Shown: piece by piece, positions 21,887 to 61,666 of the stretch
Layout: each line of letters opens with the position of its first letter
Numbering within the stretch: the first letter of the stretch is position 1
Source of the DNA: Bacillota bacterium
GTDB lineage: Bacteria; Bacillota; Ch66; Ch109
Length of the DNA stretch: 64,000 bases
Direction of reading: 5' to 3'
Assembly (NCBI GenBank): GCA_013178275.1
Contig: JABLWZ010000008.1
Location: 1-64,000, forward strand
The notes under the pieces: model-generated
Told to the model about the DNA's origin: nothing
What the model saw: the letters and a program-made list of their open reading frames with translations, nothing else
The model's database searches: none
Made by a program: the position numbers and the translations under genes

Positions 21887-22137
21887 CGCACTTTTATCTC
21901 TCGCGTCCAGGTGCTGCTTAAACCCCTACCTGGAGGAGGGGTCTCACTTATGTTCGACTGCTGCTGACGCAGACCGTACATACTTCATGTCATATTCGCA
22001 CTTTTATCTCTCGCGTCCAGGTGCTACTTAAATCCCTACCTGGAGGAGAGGTCTCACTTATGTTCGACCCCTGCTGACGCAGACCGTACATACTTTATGT
22101 CATTCTCGCACTTTTATCTCTCGCGCCCAGGTGCTGT
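21886..22137. repeat. 110-bp tandem repeat, two full copies plus a shortened coding copy
   Basis: Units begin at 21886, 21996 and 22106, each with TCGCACTTTTATCTCTCGCG. Copies one and two are full 110-bp units differing at a handful of positions. Copy three matches only the first 30 bp or so and lacks a 36-bp block found in the others between GTGCTG and TTCGAC; it encodes, on the minus strand, the last residues of the SLH surface protein. The missing block can fold (ACCCCT with AGGGGT). Thus the repeat looks like duplicated 3' end of that gene. Confidence 0.85.
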
Positions 22138-25100
22138 TCGACCCCGTGGTACCCCATCAACCGGCAGATGATCGAGAATACCTCTCCCCGCTTGATGTTG
22201 TTATTCGGTCGGAAAGTGTTGTCAGGGTAGCCGCTGACCACGCCGTTCGACACCGCCGCCGCTACAAACGTCCTGGCCCAGTCGGGGATGCTTCCCGCGT
22301 CGGTGAAGCCGAGCACGAATCCCGCCGGGGTAGTCCTCGGGAAGGCCTGCATCAGGGCCGCGCACATCTCCGCCCGGGTTATCCTTTGATCAGGTTTGAA
22401 GGTCCCATCAGGATAGCCCTTCATCAACCCTTTTTCGGCAGCTGTAAGTATCGCCTTCCTGGCCCAGTCCGGGATCTCGTCCTGGTAGGGCTTCTCCATA
22501 CTCTGCGGCTGGTAGTCCGTAAGCCCCAGGGCCGAAACCAGCAGGACCGCCGCTTCCGCCCGGGTGATCTCGTTCTCGGGCCGGATGGTCCCATCGGGAT
22601 AACCCTCGATTATCCCGTGCTGCAGCAGGGCTATGACGCAGCCGTGCGCCCAGTGACCCGCCAGGTCGGTCGGTTCTTCCACCGTCGGGGCCTCCACCTC
22701 GGGCTCGGCCGGCGGCTTGACTGGTTCGTTCGGTTGAGGCGGGCTCCCTCCGCCGCCACCGCCATTACCGCCGCTGGGGGGCGGGGCCGTCTGGAAGTTA
22801 GCCTGGACCCGTTTATCAGCGCTCATTACAACGCTGACAGTGGAAGTAGTCGCTGTGACCCCATCGATGTCCCATTTGACAAATTTCCATCCGGGATCGG
22901 AAGTCGCCGTAAGCTGAACCTCCTGTCCCGCCGAGTACTTACCGTCTTCACCCGGCGCCGGGCTGGCGTCCACTCTCCCATTGCCTTCTTTTTCTATGGT
23001 TAGGGAGTACCGGCTTGGAACAACAATCGGTTCGAAGTGGGCCACCAGGGCGCGGTCGGTCTCGGCCGCGAAGGAGTATTCAGCGTTGGTGCTTACTACC
23101 GATTCCCCCTCGGTCCAGTTCACGAAGCTGTATCCGCTCTGTGGAGCCGCGGTAACGGTTACCGACTGCCCGCTCTGATAAGTGCCGCCCCCGCTGACGC
23201 TGCCGCCCTCCGCCGGGCTGGCGCTGACGAAGATGCTGACCGATTGCGGGATTATTGGTGCAAAGTGGGCCACCAGAGCGCGATCGGTCTCGGCCGCGAA
23301 GGAGTATTCAGCGTTGGTGCTTACTACCGATTCCCCCTCGGTCCAGTTCACGAAGCCGTACCCGGTCTGTGGAGCCGCGGTAACGGTCACCCACTGCCCG
23401 TTCTGATAAGTGCCGCCCCCGCTGACGCTGCCGCCCTCCGCCGGGCTGGCGCTGACAGCGATGCTGATCGACTGCGGGGCTGTCGGCGCGAAGTGGGCCA
23501 CCAGGATGTGGTCGTCAAAGGCGGTGAAGGTATACTCCGCGGTAATGCTGACGACCGATTCCCCCTCGGTCCAGTTCACGAAGCTGTATCCGGTCTGTGG
23601 AGCCGCGGTAACGGTTACCGACTGCCCGCTCTGATAAGTGCCGCCCCCGCCGACGCTGCCGCCCTCCGCCGGGCTGGCGCTGACGAAGATGCTGACCGAC
23701 TGCGGCATTGTTGATGCGAAATTGGCGACCAGGACCACATCACGCGCCGGCATGGTGTACTCGAAGGTGGCGGATGTGCTCACCACGATGTCGTCCACCG
23801 TCCAGTTCACGAACCGGTAACCGCTGTTCGCCGCCGCCGCGACTTTTACGGCTGTATCCACCGGGTACGGACCATCGTCGGTTTCGTCGATCGCGGTGCC
23901 GCCCGCCGCCGGATCGGCATAAAGGGTCAGGGTGTAGGTATTGACCGGTGCCCCCTGGTACTCGTAAGCGCCCATATCCACTATGTCGTTCGCGATGCGG
24001 GGGCTGCCGTCCAGGTCGGTGGTAACCCCAGCGGGAAGAGCCGCATTGTCACCCCCGTCGATAGCGGGCGAAGCAGCCTGCAGGCGCAGGTTGCCGGCCA
24101 CCGCGTCTACAAAAAGCGGGTCGGAGTCGAGGTTATAGCCTCCGTCGTCGCCCAGGTCGGGATTCCATCCGGTTCCGGAACCGCCGCAGCCTTCAACCAG
24201 GCTGTGGCTGATGGTTGGGAAGTAGGGGGAAGCAGGTGACGTCCTGGTGTTCAACAGCTGGCTGCCGCCTACCTCCGCGCTGTTGCCCCACAGCACGCAG
24301 TTGGCTATCGTGGAGCCGCTCCCGTGGTTGCGCATCCCGCCGCCGTTCTTGGCCGCGTTGCCGCTGAAGGTGGCGTTGGTCAGGGCCGGGCTGCTGAGAT
24401 CATTAAACATCCCGCCACCATCCTCAACCGCGGTGTTGCCCTTGAATACCACGTTGGTGAATGAAGGGCCGTCGCTCTCGTCGCAGCAGACCCCGCCGCC
24501 GTTTTTGGCCGAGTTGCCGCTGAAGGTTACGTTGGTGAAGGACGGATTGCATCTTATGCTGTATATACCGCCCCCGTTTTCCTGGGCCTGGTTTTGATCG
24601 AAGACCGCATCTTTCAGTTTCAGGGAGGGGCTCATATAGTTGTGGAGCCCGCCGCCGTGCAGCTGCGCCCGGTTGTTGTGGAAGGCTACATCGTCGAGGG
24701 TCAGGCTGCCGCTGAAGTTGTAGATCCCTCCCCCGTACTCACTGGCGGTGTTGGAATCGAAGGTCGTCTGGTTCAGGGCTGACACGGGGGAAGCGAAGAT
24801 GAACAGGCCGCCTCCCCATTTGCCTGAGGAATTCCCGTTGAAGGACACGTTGTTCAGGGTGAAGCCGACGCTGTCGATATACATCCCCCCGCCTTCGCTG
24901 GTGGAGGCATTGGAGTTGAACGTGACGTTGTTGAGCACCCGGGCGCCGGGTTTTTGGACATTATTCCAGTCGTGCATCCCGCCGCCCATTATCGCCTGGT
25001 TGTTGTTGAAGACAGCGCCGTTGATGGTTATGCTGTTGTTCTCGTTCTGCATCCCACCGCCGTTCAGTGTCGCCACGTTGTTGTTGAAGGCGAGGTCGGT

Positions 25101-26678
25101 AAGGGTGGGGTTGCCGTCTTCGGCGTTGAACATGCCGGCCCCGCATTTAGCCCGGTTGTCGTTGAAGGTGACCTTCACGAGCGACGGGCTGCATTTCTGG
25201 TTGAACATCCCGCCGCCAAACAGTGACGTGCTGTTGCGGCTGAAAGTGAGGTTGCTGAGGGAGGGGCTGCTCATGTAGTTGTACATCCCGCCGCCGAGGT
25301 TTTCCCCGTTTTCGGACGCGGGACCGTCGGCGTTGCCGCCGGTGATCGTAAAACCATCCAGGACCGCGCTGGAGTCGAGGTCCAGTTCCGAGTGATAAAA
25401 CACGTGGTAGCTGTTCTCACCGTTGTTAGAGATTACGCCGTCGGTGATAACGTCGTTTTGGCCGATATCGCCGCTCAGGATGGTCTCATGGACCGCGAAG
25501 TTCCGACCGTCGAGATCGAAATCAGGCTCCTCGCTGCCGGCGAAGCCTCCGTAGATGGCCACCCCGTTCTTCATGCGGAACTGTTTGTAGCGGTCATCAC
25601 GCTCGAGTCCATAGTAGCTGGTGGGGTAGTAGGTCCCGGCCGCTACCCAGATCTTTTTGCCCGCGCTCGCGACATCAAGTGCCGCCTGCAGCGTCGTGAA
25701 GGCGTCCGTCCAGCTCGTTCCGTTATTGGCGCCGGCGGCGTCGTGCTTGACGTAGATGATGCCCGACGACGAAGGCTGGGTCTCGCCCGCCACCGTTAGA
25801 TTGACTCCGGTCTGAATCTCATTGGGGGACTTTATGCTGAACACATAGATCATATAATCTCCAGCCGCGAGCGGCACCCCCGCGCTGTCGGTGGTCAGCG
25901 ACTCGCCGCCGGTCCAGGAACTGGTGGTGTTGTCGTCGAAGACGGCCACCGGGTTCTGGGTGGAGGAGTCCAACAGGGCAGACGCCGGCAGGATGTAGAG
26001 CTTCTGGCTGGTCACCTCAGGGGTAGCCGAGGGGGTCCAGGTGATGTGAAAATCCCGGCCGTCCACCCCCGGTTGGGTGCCGTCCAGGTCACTGGCACTG
26101 AGGTCGGTGGCCGGCTCAAGACCGGGGAGGGAATCACCCTCGTAGATGGAATGGACAATAGCAAATGAAGTATGGGTGACCGTTTTGTAGGTGGTAACGG
26201 TATGAGTGATAATTATTGTTAGCTCCAAATCTTCGATCTCGGTTTTCTCATCCTGCCCGGTGACCGTCTCGCTGGTGGTGTCCGTAAACCGCGCAGTACT
26301 GGTGACATGGTCATGCAGATCGATATATTGCTCGGTATTGGCCGCCAGGCCGGTGAGTGTCTTCAGATAGTTCTTTTCCGCTTCATCCAGGCCGCTGAAC
26401 TTCTCGCCACTGCTGGTGCCTATCGTCATTGGATCGGCGTCCCCATTTATCCAGCGGGTCCATTCATTGTCGAAGAAGTTCGGTGAGATGTCCGTTTCCG
26501 AGAAGCCCCGGACCACCCGGTGGGTCTCGTAGACATCCGTTACCACGGTATTTTGTACCTCAATCTTTTTTACGGTTTTCTCAACCCCGGCATAGGCGGG
26601 CGGGTTTCCCGCCGGCAGCATGCCCGCGACAAACGCAAGGATCAGTAGTATCACCAGCCAGTTATGCCTTTTTATCAT
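22095..26678 (-). CDS. S-layer-anchored beta-helix surface protein with InlB-like repeats
   Basis: 1527 residues. Signal peptide to about 30; an N-terminal part (about 30-320) with a fibronectin-like stretch; a right-handed beta-helix (about 325-850) with many G-G-G-M/I/L plus N-x-A turns such as NSNASTSEGGGMY and a closing choice-of-anchor Q type segment (DSDPLFVDA, SPAIDGGDNAALPAG, DMGAYEYQG); five InlB/bacterial-repeat domains (about 900-1290) with SFVNWTEGESVVS; a Gly/Pro-rich linker; three SLH domains (about 1340-1505), each with GYPDGT/GYPDNT and ITRAE-like motifs, that bind secondary wall polymer. Probable adhesin. A cyclic-di-GMP riboswitch lies 148 nt upstream. The last 15 residues are encoded by the 110-bp repeat. 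Confidence 0.92.
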   Translation of the reverse strand: MIKRHNWLVILLILAFVAGMLPAGNPPAYAGVEKTVKKIEVQNTVVTDVYETHRVVRGFSETDISPNFFDNEWTRWINGDADPMTIGTSSGEKFSGLDEAEKNYLKTLTGLAANTEQYIDLHDHVTSTARFTDTTSETVTGQDEKTEIEDLELTIIITHTVTTYKTVTHTSFAIVHSIYEGDSLPGLEPATDLSASDLDGTQPGVDGRDFHITWTPSATPEVTSQKLYILPASALLDSSTQNPVAVFDDNTTSSWTGGESLTTDSAGVPLAAGDYMIYVFSIKSPNEIQTGVNLTVAGETQPSSSGIIYVKHDAAGANNGTSWTDAFTTLQAALDVASAGKKIWVAAGTYYPTSYYGLERDDRYKQFRMKNGVAIYGGFAGSEEPDFDLDGRNFAVHETILSGDIGQNDVITDGVISNNGENSYHVFYHSELDLDSSAVLDGFTITGGNADGPASENGENLGGGMYNYMSSPSLSNLTFSRNSTSLFGGGMFNQKCSPSLVKVTFNDNRAKCGAGMFNAEDGNPTLTDLAFNNNVATLNGGGMQNENNSITINGAVFNNNQAIMGGGMHDWNNVQKPGARVLNNVTFNSNASTSEGGGMYIDSVGFTLNNVSFNGNSSGKWGGGLFIFASPVSALNQTTFDSNTASEYGGGIYNFSGSLTLDDVAFHNNRAQLHGGGLHNYMSPSLKLKDAVFDQNQAQENGGGIYSIRCNPSFTNVTFSGNSAKNGGGVCCDESDGPSFTNVVFKGNTAVEDGGGMFNDLSSPALTNATFSGNAAKNGGGMRNHGSGSTIANCVLWGNSAEVGGSQLLNTRTSPASPYFPTISHSLVEGCGGSGTGWNPDLGDDGGYNLDSDPLFVDAVAGNLRLQAASPAIDGGDNAALPAGVTTDLDGSPRIANDIVDMGAYEYQGAPVNTYTLTLYADPAAGGTAIDETDDGPYPVDTAVKVAAAANSGYRFVNWTVDDIVVSTSATFEYTMPARDVVLVANFASTMPQSVSIFVSASPAEGGSVGGGGTYQSGQSVTVTAAPQTGYSFVNWTEGESVVSITAEYTFTAFDDHILVAHFAPTAPQSISIAVSASPAEGGSVSGGGTYQNGQWVTVTAAPQTGYGFVNWTEGESVVSTNAEYSFAAETDRALVAHFAPIIPQSVSIFVSASPAEGGSVSGGGTYQSGQSVTVTAAPQSGYSFVNWTEGESVVSTNAEYSFAAETDRALVAHFEPIVVPSRYSLTIEKEGNGRVDASPAPGEDGKYSAGQEVQLTATSDPGWKFVKWDIDGVTATTSTVSVVMSADKRVQANFQTAPPPSGGNGGGGGGSPPQPNEPVKPPAEPEVEAPTVEEPTDLAGHWAHGCVIALLQHGIIEGYPDGTIRPENEITRAEAAVLLVSALGLTDYQPQSMEKPYQDEIPDWARKAILTAAEKGLMKGYPDGTFKPDQRITRAEMCAALMQAFPRTTPAGFVLGFTDAGSIPDWARTFVAAAVSNGVVSGYPDNTFRPNNNIKRGEVFSIICRLMGYHGVEQHLGARDKSARMT
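23030..23714 (-). repeat. Three near-identical 228-bp repeats inside the surface-protein gene
   Basis: Identical blocks recur at exact 228-bp steps (for example the GTGCCGCCCCCG stretch near 23182, 23410 and 23638). They encode 76-residue InlB-like units. The near identity at DNA level, including third codon positions, points to recent duplication or conversion; copy number may vary between strains. Confidence 0.88.
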
Positions 26679-26825
26679 TCCCCTACCACTCCCCCTTAAA
26701 TTAAATCTTATTTACGTGGAATGTTAATACAGACCACATCCAATAGTGCTCACCTGGTCCTCTATCACCCCGCTTCGGGAATTAATAATTAACTGTGCAT
26801 TATTGGCAGGTTTTTTAGATAAACA

Positions 26826-26926
26826 AGCCGGGTCACCAGTATGCTCCTGGCAACCCGGCTGCCGTAGCCATCCGCCTTAGGCCCGTGGTTTTGCGCCCCG
26901 GTCTTTCAACCGGTTTGCCCTTCAGA
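26826..26926 (-). ncRNA. Cyclic-di-GMP-I (GEMM) riboswitch with overlapping terminator
   Basis: On the minus strand from about 26926: GGGCAAACC, P2 hairpin CCGGTTGAAAGACCGG with a GAAA tetraloop, GGGCGCAAAACCACGGGCC, CTAAGG, then a P3 strand ending GGCAGCCGGGTTGCC. These are the conserved blocks of the class I c-di-GMP aptamer, including the tetraloop and its receptor. AGCCGGGT..CCAG (26847-26860) can pair instead with 26826-26839 to form a terminator-like stem followed by TTGTTTAT. The next gene on this strand is the SLH surface protein. Whether ligand turns it on or off is not settled by reading. Confidence 0.93.
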
Positions 26927-27062
26927 TTTAAACATCTATGTTCCACAAACCCTTCTTACAACTTCATTACATTTATAAATTAATTTTTTCTAAATTATTG
27001 CTATTTTTAAATGTTTTTCAGTTCTATCCGGTAAGAATATATACCCTATCGTCTTTTCAAGA

Positions 27063-27078
27063 TGTGATGCCCGTCACA
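27063..27078. promoter_or_regulatory. TGTGA-N6-TCACA palindrome (CRP/FNR- or Rex-like site)
   Basis: ATGTGATGCCCGTCACAT is a perfect inverted repeat of the type bound by CRP/FNR-family or Rex regulators. It lies in a 630-bp gene-free region, 137 bp upstream of the riboswitch start (minus strand) and 231 bp upstream of the STAND-like gene (plus strand). The remainder of 26927-27309 is AT-rich and holds no gene that I can see. The regulator is unknown. Confidence 0.45.
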
Positions 27079-27309
27079 TTTTCCCATGCTTTTTTAAAAT
27101 AATCGCCGGCCGCTTAACAAAAAAGCAGGCGTTAATAGTCAACTATAAGAAGGAAATATTAATGATTTTATCGAATTGAAAAAATGTTCCGGGCTTTACC
27201 GCTGCAGGGAAGAAATCCACGCAGATAACTTCACATCTTAAAAAATATTTGAAAACTCTGCCAAAATCACTACCATTAATGGATAAAAAAATTCCTGGGG
27301 TGAAAGTGG

Positions 27310-29028
27310 TTGCGTCTTCCGATAACAAAGGACGGGCTTCAGTCCTGGCTGCCCCTTGAACAGGTAGGGGTTTTTCTTGAATGGCTGGCCGACCGCGGCC
27401 GGGCCGTTTTCTACCTCTCAGGCCCCGCCGGTTCCGGGAAAACCTCTCTCCTCGACACGTTCGTAAGACGGTTGGGTGAGGCCGCTGTGGATGACCGGGA
27501 GATACTGCGGCTCGATTTTTCCGACAGCGCCGTGGACATCAGGACCGGTCTGCTCACCCTAAACGGGTTGGCCTCTGACGGCATCCCCCGGATTTTGATA
27601 CTCGACGGCGTTTACAACGCCGAAGGCGTCACGGGGTCCATCGAGGCCCTGCTGCTGGCCCATCCCGGGTCACTAAAAATAGTCGTCGCTTCCCGCACCA
27701 GGCCGTCCGGTGCCTGGCTGGTCTCACCGGTGCTCCGGCAGTCGACCACCCACCACCTGATAGGTCGGGACGAAAACAGCCTTGACAGATTCGACCGTGA
27801 CGATAATTCCCCGGAACAGGTCGTGCGGCGCTACCTGCTGGAGGTGGACGATCCCACGCTGCTGCCCTACCTTGAGACCGCCGCAGCCGCCTGGAGATTC
27901 GACCGCGACCTGCTTTATTACCTGAATGGCGGCATCAGGCCCATGGCCTTCAGGAAAATACTGCAGCTCTCTTTTGTCCACCAGGACCAGATCGGGCTGT
28001 ACCTGGACCCGGTCCTGAGACAGGCGATGCTGGACCGGCTGGGTCGGGACAAGGCCGAGAAACTCCGCCGGGGTATCCACCTCTTCTCCCTTGGTGAATC
28101 TTCTAACCGGCAGCGCTCACCGATACACTGGCTGAACACCCTGTATACCCTGGAAGGTGAAGAGGCCCCCCGGCGTCTGTTCGAACTGCCGCCGCCGGGC
28201 GCGTCCGTCCAGATCATCGACCGGCTGCCAGGTGGCATGGGGTCCTGGAGCCAGTACCTGAATAATAAAGAAACAGCCGAAGGACAGCTTCCCGGGTGCG
28301 TCTTCCTGGGGTCCTTCCTGGACGGCGAGTGCCAGGGAGCCGCCGCAGTGAGCGAGTCCTTCGTGGGACCTCCAGGTATCCATCGGGAGACCGGCGGTGC
28401 CCGGTTCCTCCGGACTCTGGCCGTTAGGCCGGGGAGGTCGTGGGCCGCCGCCCACCTGGTCCGTTACCTGCTGGTGGACAATATAATGAAGGCAGACATC
28501 GTCACCGCCCCCCCGCGCGGCGGGCTGGCCGAAATGCTGGGGGAGATCGGCGGTGAGGCTTTAAACGACGAAGGCGGTTGCTTTCTGCTCGGACTTAAAA
28601 AGGACTTTCCGAAGTGGCTTGATTCCATACTTTACGGGCAGCCGACCTGGAAGCCAAAAGACAGCGAGATAGTTGAAGCCACCCGGAAGACCCTGCAGAA
28701 CTGGCGGCAGCCGGGTATGTCTCGGAGCCTCCCCCTCCTCGAGATGCTGGAGCACGCCGGCGCTCCCGACCCGGGTACGGCCGTCGGTTTCGACCATTTC
28801 GAATCTATCATGTCATCGGTCCTCAGGTCCTATCACGATGAGAATCCCCGGATGGCCCGTATCATAGACGCGGTCTACCTGCGGCACTCCACCAGAATGA
28901 GGGATGCCGCCAAGGAGTTGGGTATCCCTGAGCGCACCCTGTACCGGGAGATACAGAGGTCGCTGTACCAGATAGGAAAAAACCTCCTGAGACAGATGGG
29001 AAGGAATAGTATCCATGACCAGGAATGA
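27310..29028 (+). CDS. STAND-like P-loop ATPase with GNAT-like region and C-terminal HTH
   Basis: 572 residues, TTG start with GGGGTGA 6 nt upstream. Walker A is GPAGSGKT (38-45), Walker B-like RILILDGVY near 95, and an ASRTRP sensor-like segment near 125, in the order seen in STAND/MalT-type regulators. The middle (about 325-455) has a pattern reminiscent of GNAT acetyltransferases: FLRTLAVRPGRSW, then AAHLVRYLL, then a GGEAL segment. The C-terminus (about 515-550) has a helix-turn-helix, RMRDAAKELGIPERTLYREI. I know no named protein with this layout. It overlaps the next, similarly built gene by 14 nt. Likely a transcription regulator (inference). Confidence 0.7.
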   Translation: MRLPITKDGLQSWLPLEQVGVFLEWLADRGRAVFYLSGPAGSGKTSLLDTFVRRLGEAAVDDREILRLDFSDSAVDIRTGLLTLNGLASDGIPRILILDGVYNAEGVTGSIEALLLAHPGSLKIVVASRTRPSGAWLVSPVLRQSTTHHLIGRDENSLDRFDRDDNSPEQVVRRYLLEVDDPTLLPYLETAAAAWRFDRDLLYYLNGGIRPMAFRKILQLSFVHQDQIGLYLDPVLRQAMLDRLGRDKAEKLRRGIHLFSLGESSNRQRSPIHWLNTLYTLEGEEAPRRLFELPPPGASVQIIDRLPGGMGSWSQYLNNKETAEGQLPGCVFLGSFLDGECQGAAAVSESFVGPPGIHRETGGARFLRTLAVRPGRSWAAAHLVRYLLVDNIMKADIVTAPPRGGLAEMLGEIGGEALNDEGGCFLLGLKKDFPKWLDSILYGQPTWKPKDSEIVEATRKTLQNWRQPGMSRSLPLLEMLEHAGAPDPGTAVGFDHFESIMSSVLRSYHDENPRMARIIDAVYLRHSTRMRDAAKELGIPERTLYREIQRSLYQIGKNLLRQMGRNSIHDQE

Positions 29029-31105
29029 ACCGGCAGGCAAAAACGAGGGTTCCCGGTACATAGGCCGGGGCCAGGAACTGGAGAGGGTGATTTCGCATAT
29101 CGGGTCCCCCCCGCCTTACCAGATCTTTCTGGTGCTGGGACCGGGCGGCGCGGGCAAGACCACGCTGCTCAGGATGACCGAGGATAAGCTGGGTGGAGCC
29201 CGTTCACCCGTGTACATCGACTGCAAGAACTGCTTCGACCATCTGGACAGTTTCACCCGCCTGCTGGCCAGGACCCTGGGTATAGCGGAAGGTAAAGAGC
29301 CTGACTGGACCGGTTGGCCGGGGCGGCAAGACAGCGTCCTGCTGGTTGACAGCTTCGAGATGATGGGGCCTTACCAGGCCGGGCTCGTAGGGCTGCTCTC
29401 TGTCCTTGCCCGGGAGGTTCCGGTGGTGATAGCCTCCAGGACCGCACCCGACCTGGGTATGAAAGCGCTGGAGGTACCCCCTTTCGGCCGGGATGACATC
29501 ACCGACTACCTGCTGAACGCAGGCCTTCCGGCGGAGATGGCGGAAGACGCCTGCCGTTTCTCGGAGGGCAATCCCCTGCTGCTCAGCCTCTTCACCCTGG
29601 CCGCCTCCGCCAGCAAGAACCCGGCGGAGATAAACCGGGCCTCGATAGAGTCGGATTTCGTTTCCTTCATCATCTCCGAGGTGACCGGGGACGAGGTCTT
29701 CGAGCTGCTGGAGGCCGCCAGCCTCATCCATTCCTTCACCTGGGACCTGCTGGAGCACATGCTCTCCTCCCAGGTGGACCCGGAATCCTTCCGGGTCCTC
29801 ACCGGCCTTTCTTTTATCACCCAGGACGCTGAAGGATGGCAGATCCACGAGGTGGTCAGCAAGTCGCTCCGGAACTCCCTGAAGCAGTACGGCCGCCGGA
29901 GGTACTACGAACTGAAGCTTCGGGCGCTGGAGTACTACGACCGGGAGGAACACCGGTCCCCGGGGAAAAACTACCTGATCCACCGGGTTTACATGTGCGA
30001 GGACGACTTCTCCCGCGAGGTCTTCTTCAGCATGGGCATCAACCTGGAGCGCGAGGGGATATACTTTTCCCCCGCCCGGGCATCCGACCTCCCCAACATT
30101 CCCGATTTTTGGAGGAACAGCATGCTGGTCACGGGGTTTCCCGCCGGGATACTCTCGGACGGGTACGAAGACACCGCCCGCCTGGTCGAGTACGCCGCCG
30201 AGTACATCCGCATCCTGCGGGACCGGGACGACAGCATCCTGGGCTACCACGCCACCGTGCCTATCTGCGCCTCGACCTTCGGCTACTTCCGGGACTCCCC
30301 GGCCACCCGGGAGTATATCGCGAGCCTGCCGCAGAGAGAGCTGGCCTACCTCCAGAAGACCAGCGCCGGGAAGACCGATACCTTCTTCATACGTCACCTC
30401 AACCCCTCGGACATCAGCAACCCCCTGATCACGGCGGCCCTGCTGCAGGACATCTTCCTCGTCTGTATCGGGGATGGATGCCGCGCCGTCACCACCATCC
30501 CCCTCGACCTGTTCCAGTCGCTGGTTGACGGTCTGGGGTTCCGGCAGCTGCCGGGGATATTCGACACCACCCTGGGCATGAAGTGGCCCGCCTACGAGCT
30601 GGACTTCCGCCATACCAGCATCAACCTCTGGTACCAGTGGCTGGCGATGGGACGCACCCTCCCGCACTGGCTGCATATCATCCTGACCTACACCCGGCAG
30701 TACTGGCGGGAGCAGATAGAGCTGGTGCTGGACAACCTCCACAACCCCCGGTTCCTGAACCACCACCCGCTGTCCCCCCTGGCTGAGGAGGCCTGCCCCC
30801 AGGGTGCCGACGATGGGCCGGCCTTGAAAAGGCTGGTGCTGGACCTGGCGTCCTCCCTCGCCGAAGACGACCGGTCGAACGGAACGGGGCGATACTCCCC
30901 TGTCGGGCTGGGCGGGATCCTCTTAACCACCTTCGCTCAAAAAACCACGCGGGAGGAGGCGGCCGCCCGGCTGAACCTGCCGCCTACCACCTACTACCGC
31001 CGGCTGAAGCAGGCCAAGAGCGCCCTGGCCGACCGGATGTTCCAGACCGCGGTGGAGACCGCGGAGGCCCGGTACGCGAGACTGGAGCTGGAAAAAGAAG
31101 CCTGA
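29015..31105 (+). CDS. STAND-like P-loop ATPase with GNAT-like region and C-terminal HTH (second copy)
   Basis: 696 residues. Walker A GPGGAGKT (42-49), Walker B-like VLLVDSFEMMG near 110, IASRTAPDLG near 150, then a winged-helix-like stretch to about 300. The region about 400-525 resembles a GNAT domain: DSILGYHATVPICAST, FFIRHLNPSD, LLQDIFLVCIG, DGLGFRQLPG. C-terminal HTH near 645-672, TREEAAARLNLPPTTYYRRL. The protein is a diverged relative of the preceding gene product by layout rather than by obvious sequence identity. AAGGA lies 9 nt before the ATG inside the previous gene, so translation is coupled. Confidence 0.7.
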   Translation: MTRNEPAGKNEGSRYIGRGQELERVISHIGSPPPYQIFLVLGPGGAGKTTLLRMTEDKLGGARSPVYIDCKNCFDHLDSFTRLLARTLGIAEGKEPDWTGWPGRQDSVLLVDSFEMMGPYQAGLVGLLSVLAREVPVVIASRTAPDLGMKALEVPPFGRDDITDYLLNAGLPAEMAEDACRFSEGNPLLLSLFTLAASASKNPAEINRASIESDFVSFIISEVTGDEVFELLEAASLIHSFTWDLLEHMLSSQVDPESFRVLTGLSFITQDAEGWQIHEVVSKSLRNSLKQYGRRRYYELKLRALEYYDREEHRSPGKNYLIHRVYMCEDDFSREVFFSMGINLEREGIYFSPARASDLPNIPDFWRNSMLVTGFPAGILSDGYEDTARLVEYAAEYIRILRDRDDSILGYHATVPICASTFGYFRDSPATREYIASLPQRELAYLQKTSAGKTDTFFIRHLNPSDISNPLITAALLQDIFLVCIGDGCRAVTTIPLDLFQSLVDGLGFRQLPGIFDTTLGMKWPAYELDFRHTSINLWYQWLAMGRTLPHWLHIILTYTRQYWREQIELVLDNLHNPRFLNHHPLSPLAEEACPQGADDGPALKRLVLDLASSLAEDDRSNGTGRYSPVGLGGILLTTFAQKTTREEAAARLNLPPTTYYRRLKQAKSALADRMFQTAVETAEARYARLELEKEA

Positions 31106-32390: not shown

Positions 32391-33536
32391 TTATAGGCCC
32401 ATCTGCTTGGCGATTATCTCCAGCATTATCTCGTCGCTGCCGCCGCCTATCCGGTGCAGCCGGGCGTCCCGCCACATCCGGCCGATGGCGTACTCGCTGG
32501 TGTAGCCGTAGCCCCCGAAAGCCTGGATGCAGTCGTCCGCCACCTCGAAACAGGTCTGGCCGCACAGCACCTTGCACATGGCTATCTCCTTGACCGGGTA
32601 CTCTCCCCGCAGGAACCGCCAGAGGGTGGTGTAGACCAGGTTCTGCGCCGCCTCTACCTTGGCGGCGGCCGCCGCCATACGGTGCTGCCATACCTGGTAG
32701 GACGCGATCGGCTTCCCGAAGACCTTCCGCTGCTTGATGTAGTCCAGGGTCAGGTCGATCATGTGCCGGGCCCCGGCGATGGTCCCGGCTGCGCCTACCA
32801 GCCTCTCCCCGTTCAGCTCCCACATGATCTGGGTGAACCCCTCGTCCCGCTTGCCCAGCAGGGCGCTGGCAGGGGCCCGGCAGTCGTCGAAAAACAGTTC
32901 GACGGTGTCCGAGCACCGCATCCCGACCTTTTCGATCTTCTTACCCACCTCGAACCCCTTCAGGTTCTTATCCACCAGAAACAGGCTGAACCCCTTGTAC
33001 CCCTTCTCGGGGCTGGTCTTGGCCACCAGCAGCACGTAGTCCGCCCGCAAACCGTTGGTGATAAAGGTCTTGCTGCCGTTTATCACATACTCGTCGCCAT
33101 CCAGACGGGCGGTGGTTTTTACGTTGGAGACGTCAGAACCCGCTTCGGGCTCGGTAATGCCCAGACAGGCGATCCGCTTCCCGGCGATCGAGGGCATCAG
33201 GTAGTCCCGCTTCTGCTGCTCGCTGCCGAACTTCTCCAGGACCGGTATCACAAATCCCGCCTGCACCGCGATCCCCATGGGGAATCCACCGCTGCCCGAG
33301 CGTACCAGTTCCTCGATCATCACGATGTAGCTTACCAGATCTCCCCCCTGTCCCCCGTACTCCTCCGGGAGGTGCAGTCCCAGGAACCCCAGTTCACCCA
33401 TCCTTTCAAACATCGCACTGGGGAAGTCCCCCCTCTCGTCCCACTCCTGGGCAAAAGGGGCGACCTCCTTCTCCACGAAGCGCCGGACCGTTCGGCGAAG
33501 CTCCTCGTGCTCCTCGTTAAATATAAAGTGCGCCAT
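32391..33536 (-). CDS. Acyl-CoA dehydrogenase (long-chain/LCAD-like active site)
   Basis: 381 residues, full length. N-terminal helical domain, FAD-binding middle with LGITEPEAGSDVSN and FITNGLRADY, C-terminal bundle with FGGYGYTSEYAIGR. At the place of the usual catalytic Glu-Gly-Thr the sequence reads GGGSDEIMLE, as in LCAD and isovaleryl-CoA dehydrogenases, whose base lies on another helix. It introduces a 2,3-double bond into an acyl-CoA and passes electrons to ETF (not in the window). GGAGG precedes the ATG by 6 nt. Last gene of the 41.5-32.4 kb operon. Confidence 0.9.
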   Translation of the reverse strand: MAHFIFNEEHEELRRTVRRFVEKEVAPFAQEWDERGDFPSAMFERMGELGFLGLHLPEEYGGQGGDLVSYIVMIEELVRSGSGGFPMGIAVQAGFVIPVLEKFGSEQQKRDYLMPSIAGKRIACLGITEPEAGSDVSNVKTTARLDGDEYVINGSKTFITNGLRADYVLLVAKTSPEKGYKGFSLFLVDKNLKGFEVGKKIEKVGMRCSDTVELFFDDCRAPASALLGKRDEGFTQIMWELNGERLVGAAGTIAGARHMIDLTLDYIKQRKVFGKPIASYQVWQHRMAAAAAKVEAAQNLVYTTLWRFLRGEYPVKEIAMCKVLCGQTCFEVADDCIQAFGGYGYTSEYAIGRMWRDARLHRIGGGSDEIMLEIIAKQMGL

Positions 33537-33625
33537 ATTCTACCTCCGTTAATCCAACCACATGTCAATCATAGATTCTTCAGCCATCGGCGGGAGCACC
33601 TACACTCTATCCAACCGGCAGCCGA

Positions 33626-34477
33626 CTACTTGTCGTACCGGTAAAACCCTTCGCCGGTCTTCCTGCCAAGCCTGCCCTCCCGCATCATCTGCTCCAGCAG
33701 CGGCGGCATCCGGTCCTCGTCCAGCCCCGTCTTTTCATACTTTTCCTTGTAAGCGTTGTAGACGATGTCCACACCCGCCATATCCATTATCTCGCACGGT
33801 CCCATGGGGTGGTTGGCGCCCAGCTTCAGCGCGGTGTCTATAGCGTAAGCGGTCGCCACCCCTTCCTGAATCATCATGATGGCCTCCTTGTACAGATGAC
33901 CCAGGAACCGGTTGACGATAAAACCAGGGACGTCCTTGACCGAGATGCCGGTCTTGCCCAGGGCCTTGCTGAGTTCAAGCGCCTTCTCCAGGGTCGCCTC
34001 GGAGGTCTTCTCGCCCTTTACAACCTCCACCAGGCGCATCAGGGGGACCGGGCTGAAAAAGTGCATACCGATAAACCGGGAAGGGTCTTTTAAGGACTCC
34101 GCCATCTCGGTGATGCTGAGCGAGGACGTGTTGGAGGCTATCACCGCCTCCGGACTTAAAATCCCGTCCAGCTGCTTGAAAAGCTCCGTCTTTACAGCGA
34201 AGAGTTCGACTATTGCCTCGATCACGAAGTCGGCATGAGCAGCCTCGGACAGGTCCCCTATCAGCTCCAGACGCCCCATGATCGCGTCTTTATCCTCGGC
34301 GGAGAGCTTGCCCTTTTCCACCTTTTTCTGGATGAACCCCTCGATGGTTTTTCTGGCCTTGTCCAGCTGGTCCTGGCTGGTGTCATAGAGCAGGACTCCT
34401 ATCCCATTTTCCACAGCCACCTGAGCGATTCCTGCTCCCATCGTACCCGATCCGACTACCAATAACTTATCGACCAT
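33626..34477 (-). CDS. hbd: 3-hydroxybutyryl-CoA dehydrogenase family protein
   Basis: 283 residues, the length of clostridial Hbd. NAD-binding GSGTMGAGIAQVA at the N-terminus, catalytic His in IGMHFFSPVPLMRLVEVV with the paired Glu, and VNRFLGHLYKEAIMM with GANHPMGPCEIMDMAG in the C-terminal domain. Oxidises an L-3-hydroxyacyl-CoA to the 3-keto form. AGGAGG lies 10 nt before the ATG. It is between the first acyl-CoA dehydrogenase and the CrtC-like genes and completes a beta-oxidation set with the hydratase upstream in the operon. Confidence 0.93.
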   Translation of the reverse strand: MVDKLLVVGSGTMGAGIAQVAVENGIGVLLYDTSQDQLDKARKTIEGFIQKKVEKGKLSAEDKDAIMGRLELIGDLSEAAHADFVIEAIVELFAVKTELFKQLDGILSPEAVIASNTSSLSITEMAESLKDPSRFIGMHFFSPVPLMRLVEVVKGEKTSEATLEKALELSKALGKTGISVKDVPGFIVNRFLGHLYKEAIMMIQEGVATAYAIDTALKLGANHPMGPCEIMDMAGVDIVYNAYKEKYEKTGLDEDRMPPLLEQMMREGRLGRKTGEGFYRYDK

Positions 34478-59743: not shown

Positions 59744-61666
59744 GTAGAGTGAAGGGCTGGGGATACCAGCCCCTCCTCATCAAACCGTACGTGAGGTTTT
59801 CCCTCATACGGCTTTCCGATGTTCGTCGTCATGGACGTTCGGCTCTAACCAATTTCAACAGTCCATTTGTCTGTAAGATTCGAGCCACTTTACGGCGCAG
59901 CTTTGCCGAGTTGCGTCTCTGCGATTTCTTCGCGTAATATCGGGTTAATCGGTCGAGGATGTACCAATCCAGCTTGCCGAGTTTCCGAGTGCTGTACGGT
60001 GTCATGTAGTAGTTCCGCCATCCCCGTATCTTGGGATTGAGGAATTCCACATGATCCTTCACTGATATTACTCGGGCCGATGGCACTGCCAACCGTTCTT
60101 TCACCTCGTCGCGAATATGCTGCTCCGCTTTCGCCGTCAGCCACTGCTGGGTCGTGTAGTAAGTATGGCAACTGGTTGTTTGGGCTTTGGTCTTTCGATG
60201 GTGCATCCCCAGAAAGTCGAATCCGGCTTCTCCGGTCCACATCCCCACGAGCTTGGTCTTTTCAGGATGCAGGGTGAGTTCTAGCCGCTTCATGATGGCC
60301 TTGGTGATCTGCAAGGCGCGTTCTGCGTCCTTCTTTGTCTTGCAGACCACCACTAGATCATCAGCGTATCGGGTTAACTTCCCGATTTCCGCCCCGTTCT
60401 TTTCCCACAGTAGGTCGAAGTAATGAAGATAGATATTTGCCAGCAGCGGCGAAATTACCCCGCCCTGCGGCGTTCCGGTTACCGGTAGCCTGACCTTCCC
60501 TTCCTCCATCACGCCAGCTTGCAGCCATTTTCTAATCAGCTTCAGGATTCGCCGGTCGTTAATCCGCATTTGCACCAACTTCATCAGTTTTTCCTGGTTG
60601 ATGCTGTCAAAGTACCCCTGGATGTCGACGTCGACCACCCAATTGCCTTTGCGGTTGCAGGCCTTTCGAACCCGTTCCAGCGCTTGTTTCGCGCTTTTTC
60701 CGGGCCGGAACCCGAACGAGCAGTCCTTGAAGTCGGCCTCGAAGATTGGTTCGATAACCATCTTCACCGCCATCTGGATTACCCGGTCCCTGACTGTGGG
60801 GATGCCCAACGGGCGCTGTTTACCATCTTTCTTGGGGATGTACTTTCTGCGTACTGGTTGTGGTTGATACTTTCCTTCTTTCAGGTCCTGCTGGCAATAC
60901 AGCAAGAATTCCTGTACGCCCATCGCTTCGATGTCCGCCAGGGTCTGCCGGTCTATGCCGGCGGCTCCCTTATTGACCCGTACCTTTTCCCACGCTACCA
61001 GTAGCACGTCCATGCGATAGACCTTGTCATACAGTGCATGGAATCTGCGTCTCTGGTTTGCCTTGGAGGCATGACCTAGCTTTCCTTGGAGTTCTCGGAC
61101 TTTTTCTTTTGGTGTTGTTAGCCTTACGGCATTCACGACCCTTACCTCCTTGAAAAGCATGAACAAAGCAGAGGCCCTTCCCTCCGACTGGTTGTGTTGT
61201 CCTGCCGTTCCTTGGTACTATGGCCTCCTCCGACTCCCTCCCCGCCAAATCGCCACTTCACCGTGCTGGCTTATAGGCGTCCGTTTTACAGGTTTTCTCT
61301 CCTGTGCTGGGGTAGGGTCTCCCCAGTTCACTGCGATGTCTTTGTTACCATGCCGTTCCCTCTACGCCAGGAGGTTCTTCGGTGCTGCTTTCCCAAGTTC
61401 TTCACACCTTCCTTGGCCTTCGTCCATTTGCGCGGGACTTGGCTCCTCCTTGTTCCCCTCGCAGGGCCTTTTTGATGACGCGGCAGGATTCACTTGATGT
61501 TACGGCCTGGTAGCTTGCTCGCCCTCTCTCTGAGAGGTACTTTCGTCGATACGCTTCTACGCAAAGATTTCTCCGTACGCAGGCATCCTAGCTACGAGGC
61601 GCCTTGGTGCTTACCCCGACCGGACTTTCACCGGTTAGACATCGCGTGCTTGGCTGGGCACGCCAC
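59744..61666 (-). mobile_element. Complete class C group II intron
   Basis: About 1.92 kb on the minus strand. The 5' end is GTGGCGTGCCCAGCC at 61666, followed by GTGAAAGTCC; the RT gene is in domain IV; domain V is recognisable at about 59782-59815 (AAGCCGTATGAGG, a GAAA-like loop, CCTCACGTACGGTTT), and domain VI ends CTCTAC near 59744. The upstream exon is a terminator stem followed by TTTTTCCATTT, the class C insertion context. The 5' GTGGC deviates from the GTGYG consensus. 61137-61666 is the non-coding domain I-III part. Confidence 0.88.
59829..61136 (-). CDS. ltrA: Group II intron reverse transcriptase/maturase (class C)
   Basis: 435 residues from GTG 61136, which has AAGGAGG 8 nt upstream; the frame is open ten codons further. 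RT blocks: GIDRQTLADIEAMG, RRKYIPKKDGKQRPLGIPTVRDRV, SFGFRPGKSAKQAL, VDVDIQGYFDSIN, GTPQGGVISPLLANIYL and the catalytic YADD in TRYADDLVVVC. The maturase part (about 330-425) has the GWRNYY and RRKVARI-like segments. There is no HNH endonuclease, as expected for class C. It splices the intron and copies it into new sites. Confidence 0.96.
   Translation of the reverse strand: MNAVRLTTPKEKVRELQGKLGHASKANQRRRFHALYDKVYRMDVLLVAWEKVRVNKGAAGIDRQTLADIEAMGVQEFLLYCQQDLKEGKYQPQPVRRKYIPKKDGKQRPLGIPTVRDRVIQMAVKMVIEPIFEADFKDCSFGFRPGKSAKQALERVRKACNRKGNWVVDVDIQGYFDSINQEKLMKLVQMRINDRRILKLIRKWLQAGVMEEGKVRLPVTGTPQGGVISPLLANIYLHYFDLLWEKNGAEIGKLTRYADDLVVVCKTKKDAERALQITKAIMKRLELTLHPEKTKLVGMWTGEAGFDFLGMHHRKTKAQTTSCHTYYTTQQWLTAKAEQHIRDEVKERLAVPSARVISVKDHVEFLNPKIRGWRNYYMTPYSTRKLGKLDWYILDRLTRYYAKKSQRRNSAKLRRKVARILQTNGLLKLVRAERP

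Follow-up and report, generated by a model that had tools for sequence, protein, structure and literature searches.

An apparently undescribed family of putative STAND regulators with a GNAT-like middle domain, including a gene pair beside a c-di-GMP-I riboswitch and a surface protein gene

The window, a 64,000-nucleotide stretch of DNA from a Bacillota bacterium, encodes two overlapping proteins, P0001 and P0002, of a family that is apparently widespread but undescribed in the open-access literature. Its members comprise about 690 amino acids, were found in Bacillota, Actinomycetota, and Cyanobacteriota, and carry a STAND-type NTPase with a winged helix, followed by a GNAT-fold domain and a C-terminal helix-turn-helix (HTH). 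As judged from sequence comparisons and structure models, the family members probably regulate genes, be they those of surface proteins or others. The explanation we favor, in which P0002 is an ATP-switched STAND transcription regulator with a non-catalytic GNAT-like sensor, P0001 its modulator or partner, and the targets are located nearby, is on balance probable as a whole.

The gene pair and the spread of its family

Both genes are located on the plus strand at the originally predicted place and overlap by 14 bases. P0001 (27310..29028, 572 amino acids), a short and diverged family member, has a TTG start preceded by GGGGTGAAAG, while P0002 (29015..31105, 696 amino acids), a canonical long member, starts with ATG. 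The two are more than chance open reading frames, because full-length homologs of P0002 are present in other phyla and P0001 scored 90 bits (E 2.9e-27) against the family profile A2, which was built without P0001. Downstream of the pair, an acyl-CoA dehydrogenase gene was named by eye (32391-34477). Pieces of a group II intron were assigned by Rfam at 59744-61637 and 1-41 of the window, both on the minus strand.

Among 399 genomes of the phylum, 16 had a match to P0002 at an E-value of 0.001; roughly twelve of the matches represent full-length members, and the weakest are ABC-type ATPases. A tblastn search against plasmids returned "ATP-binding proteins" of Kitasatospora, Rhodococcus, and Nostoc. 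In the family f86, which we take to be Sulfobacillaceae-like, almost every genome encodes at least one member, and frequently more than one. Single-sequence searches detected neither paralogs of P0001 or P0002 elsewhere in their own genome nor relatives on the genome contigs; close relatives of P0002 were likewise not found in the three other genomes of the same class that were searched, and no member was found in scans of viral contigs and phage records. The P-loop, the winged-helix region, the middle domain, and a C-terminal HTH with an invariant T..R motif are aligned in A1, which comprises 17 proteins from three phyla.

The idea that the window pair corresponds to the long/short pair of the Sulfobacillaceae-like genomes was not supported, since the tree places P0001 outside the short-member clade and on a very long branch. 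According to the sequences, the riboswitch-linked short members of those genomes are not orthologs of P0001, and the window pair is a lineage separate from their loci.

In a Micromonospora relative (L030), the family block is fused behind a SARP part. The single chain encoded at L030:5742-8291 comprises Trans_reg_C and BTAD, the NTPase, the GNAT fold, and the HTH, and therefore has DNA-binding domains at both ends.

Gene neighborhoods and the linkage to c-di-GMP

The original prediction placed the pair divergently beside a c-di-GMP-controlled surface protein, and this arrangement was confirmed. The neighboring gene (22095..26678, minus strand) encodes a protein of 1527 amino acids with SLH domains and InlB-type repeats (Pfam SLH 6.6e-47, Flg_new_2 9.6e-73). 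Its leader contains a c-di-GMP-I riboswitch (26846..26929, minus strand; Rfam RF01051, 77.6 bits, E 1.6e-13). The divergent intergenic region common to this gene and the pair (26679..27309) may harbor an autoregulatory or neighbor operator. A 14-nucleotide inverted repeat (93%; 27054-27067 and 27231-27244) in this region is a possible operator.

The window genome contains 19 c-di-GMP-I riboswitches in 4.77 Mb. By our own arithmetic, a given gene would have one within 11 kb by chance in about 9% of cases, and a chance location in the same divergent gap is clearly rarer than that. Three tandem aptamers of this class (G000:C52:106406-106780) and a tandem pair (G000:C54:178087-178326) are located on the minus strand outside the window.

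The survey of other loci revealed surface or secreted protein genes beside or near family members in the window and at L065, L066, L029, L069, and L073. In 13 f86 genomes searched, one to three c-di-GMP-I riboswitches were found per genome. The distance to a short family member was at most 11 kb in seven genomes (G158, G327, G407, G416, G417, G422, and G425) and about 200 kb in G423 and G424; in G411, G418, G421, and G435, both are located on separate contigs. In the f86 loci that were read, the riboswitch precedes the gene of a conserved secreted TIG-domain protein, often with glycosyltransferase genes nearby. Six f86 genomes encode 5-11 GGDEF domains each; in four of them, such domains are located no more than about 4 kb from the short member. 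In several genomes, the direct neighbors of the short member include small HTH proteins that contain a weak GGDEF-like domain. A cluster of the riboswitch, the TIG-domain protein, glycosyltransferases, HTH and GGDEF-like proteins, and short members was seen at L069, L073, and L125-L132. The riboswitch-linked f86 loci are one syntenic lineage and not independent events. At L073 (10669-12707), three small secreted proteins end with PEVPWA or PEVPYA, a hydrophobic stretch, and basic residues, which resembles a sorting signal.

Neighbors vary between lineages. In genus g66 (L062, L063, and L064), the neighborhood, named by eye, is stable, with a PucR-type regulator and alanine dehydrogenase on one side of the family gene and a sigma-54 activator and proline dehydrogenase on the other. 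Acyl-CoA dehydrogenase genes, together with ETF, were named by eye near the members in genus g52 (L065, L066, and L076). Because of this variation between proline/alanine catabolism genes in g66 and acyl-CoA dehydrogenase and ETF in g52, the family has no single conserved target, which speaks against the favored explanation.

The pair might also encode transcription regulators unrelated to the adjoining riboswitch and surface protein, with the adjacency due to chance. The number of riboswitches in the genome makes their proximity to the pair weak evidence when taken alone, P0001 falls outside the clade of riboswitch-linked short members, and no GGDEF gene was found near P0001 or P0002. However, the pair and the surface protein gene have a divergent promoter region in common, and a separate linkage to c-di-GMP genes is seen in the Sulfobacillaceae-like genomes, so that we regard a mere chance adjacency as unlikely.

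Domain architecture of P0001 and P0002

The order of P-loop NTPase, GNAT-like region, and HTH, originally proposed for both proteins, holds for P0002 and for the family as a whole, whereas the GNAT part of P0001 is unproven. A Walker A motif is present in both window proteins (GPAGSGKT in P0001, 27421..27444; GPGGAGKT in P0002, 29138..29161; both plus strand) and in every family member examined. In P0002, the AAA_16 match (E 4.4e-6) stayed below the curated cut-off, as did all NTPase scores of both proteins with curated Pfam profiles; the relative L063 passes the nSTAND1 cut-off (35.3 vs. 27.1). The Walker B motif SVLLVDSFE of P0002 (29333..29359, plus strand) includes D112, which is invariant in A1. 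It is followed, after the NTPase core, by a GxP motif (GNP, residues 185-187; 29567..29575, plus strand). P0001 is only a diverged STAND relative, because it has lost the GxP segment after the NTPase core.

The alignments behind the structure models were five and three rows deep. The AlphaFold2 model of P0002 is good at about residues 12-300 (pLDDT mostly 70-88) and poor beyond residue 310 (35-64). The good part includes a helical and winged-helix region (about residues 208-292; 29636..29890, plus strand), for which Foldseek also points to STAND proteins. The best solved relatives of the P0002 model were the STAND-TPR protein 6mfv (3.2e-10), CED-4 (4.5e-8), and MalT (9.4e-8), accompanied by plant NLRs. 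The assignment of the N-terminal part of P0002 as a STAND NTPase with a winged helix is thus well supported by sequence motifs and the predicted fold.

The middle domain of P0002 (residues 349-531; 30059..30607, plus strand) is modeled, with low confidence, as a strand, two helices, two strands, an insertion, a strand, a helix, a strand, a helix, and two strands, which is a GNAT-like order. Its sequence matched the family middle profile, from which the window rows had been excluded, at 97.8% (P 1e-12; the reversed control gave no match). The corresponding domain of the Micromonospora relative was modeled at a pLDDT of mostly 53-88, and all of its 50 best Foldseek matches were GNAT or NAT10-type acetyltransferases (E about 1e-4 to 2.5e-3, TMt at most 0.69). 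The family middle profile is collinear with a GNAT profile from the window's own genome over the whole domain (35%, P 4e-4); in the controls, the NTPase aligned over a short stretch with 18%, while two further profiles yielded no match. Pfam yielded no match in the middle domain of P0002, and HMMER detected GNAT in the family only below threshold, with Acetyltransf_1 touched in 2 of 29 relatives (0.049 at best). Taken together, sequence profiles and models make a GNAT fold of the family middle domain likely. In P0001, a compact GNAT-like segment is possible at residues 294-430 (28189..28599, plus strand), where the pattern was read by eye and hhalign aligned only 37 columns with the family middle profile (P 0.0065).

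The RxxGxG/A motif, which binds the pyrophosphate of CoA, matched six times in 47 middle domains, in no case at its place, the junction of strand 4 and helix 3; it is present in 9 of 12 GNATs of the window's own genome. Use of acetyl-CoA through the canonical loop is therefore unlikely as far as the sequences tell, the "possible acyl-CoA sensing" of the original prediction is left without support, and a non-catalytic sensor is likelier. An active GNAT acyltransferase, that is, an ATP-regulated enzyme comparable to NAT10/TmcA that modifies a protein or nucleic acid brought close by the HTH, would fit the occurrence of NAT10/Kre33 in the Foldseek lists of both P0002 and L030 and the close fold match of the N-acyl amino acid synthase FeeM in the latter list (TMt 0.66). 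The missing motif and the lack of any Pfam GNAT match above cut-off argue against such an enzyme, which we consider rather improbable.

An HTH at the very end of both proteins, as had been predicted, was corroborated by alignment A1 and the P0002 model. The HTH core of P0001 (residues 530-548; 28897..28953, plus strand; HTH_23/HTH_8/HTH_28, E about 0.008) is below the curated cut-off and aligns with the invariant T..R of the family. In P0002 (residues 629-665; 30899..31009, plus strand), the model places helices at 629-641, 646-652, and from 657, and T659 and R662 are invariant in A1. The best HTH matches in single-sequence Pfam scans of both proteins, HTH_23/HTH_8 and Sigma70_r4_2, were all sub-threshold. 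Predicted structures lacking a GNAT fold or an HTH had been named as evidence against the proposed architecture; at the family level, both elements are supported.

Proposed mechanism and comparison with known systems

In the favored regulator reading, the switch and HTH parts of P0002 rest on homology, and we infer the sensor role, the targets, and the partnership with P0001. The signal would be read by the GNAT-like domain, seated where MalT-like proteins carry TPR repeats. Since the CoA-binding motif is missing, this domain is probably a non-catalytic binder of a partner protein or small ligand. With ATP bound, P0002 would then assemble, and its HTH tails would attach to DNA. Translation of P0001 is probably coupled to that of P0002 via the gene overlap, and the diverged P0001, devoid of GxP, is likely a modulator or partner. 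The likeliest targets would be the promoter of the pair itself and the divergent riboswitch-controlled surface protein gene. The SARP fusion in L030, the surface or secreted neighbors, and the c-di-GMP linkage in the Sulfobacillaceae-like genomes speak for a regulator. A wider reading, namely, a new class of STAND transcription switches with a catalytically dead GNAT sensor, diverged tuning partners, and a wiring to c-di-GMP-dependent surface display in several lineages through riboswitches and HTH-GGDEF partners, is conceivable, albeit doubtful.

An NLR-like anti-phage defense or stress module, with a GNAT-like part that detects an invader and an HTH of structural or autoregulatory function, is very improbable: STAND NTPases are common in defense and the P0002 fold resembles CED-4 and plant resistosomes, but PADLOC gave no convincing match (only P-loop-level similarity, E 3e-4 or weaker), an effector domain is lacking, phage records contain no member, and the neighbors are surface and metabolic genes.

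STAND proteins act in immunity and cell death as well as in part of the gene control of bacteria; which signal they answer to depends on their sensor slot. A GNAT fold in this slot, apparently without cofactor binding, would mean that the fold of an enzyme has been recruited for sensing. Members of the family, spread over several phyla, are named no more specifically than 'ATP-binding protein'. The defined gene pair adjoining a c-di-GMP-controlled surface protein offers a direct test site for the idea of a dead GNAT sensor. In line with the original claim of novelty, no account of the NTPase/GNAT-fold/HTH architecture was found in the open-access literature; in one paper on a defense locus, STAND and GNAT are separate components.

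Among known systems, STAND_TPR of PADLOC shows weak NTPase similarity to the relative L031 (0.0088), but combines an Xre-HTH with TPR and has no GNAT. NAT10/Kre33/TmcA likewise unite a P-loop ATPase and a GNAT fold in a single chain; however, they are RNA acetyltransferases with bound CoA and without an HTH, and the overall TM-scores are low (0.12-0.38). The AfsR/SARP activators (OmpR HTH, BTAD, and NTPase) also contain a STAND-like NTPase, and L030 is itself a SARP fusion, whereas Pfam detected no N-terminal Trans_reg_C and BTAD part in the window proteins, whose HTH is C-terminal. MalT and the LAL-type STAND activators share the STAND NTPase, the winged helix, and the C-terminal HTH, and MalT (8bob) is the third Foldseek match of P0002. 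MalT comprises about 900 amino acids and is thus longer than the family members. In contrast to these activators, the window proteins have no LuxR/GerE-type HTH match in Pfam, and the GNAT-fold domain takes the place of the TPR sensor.
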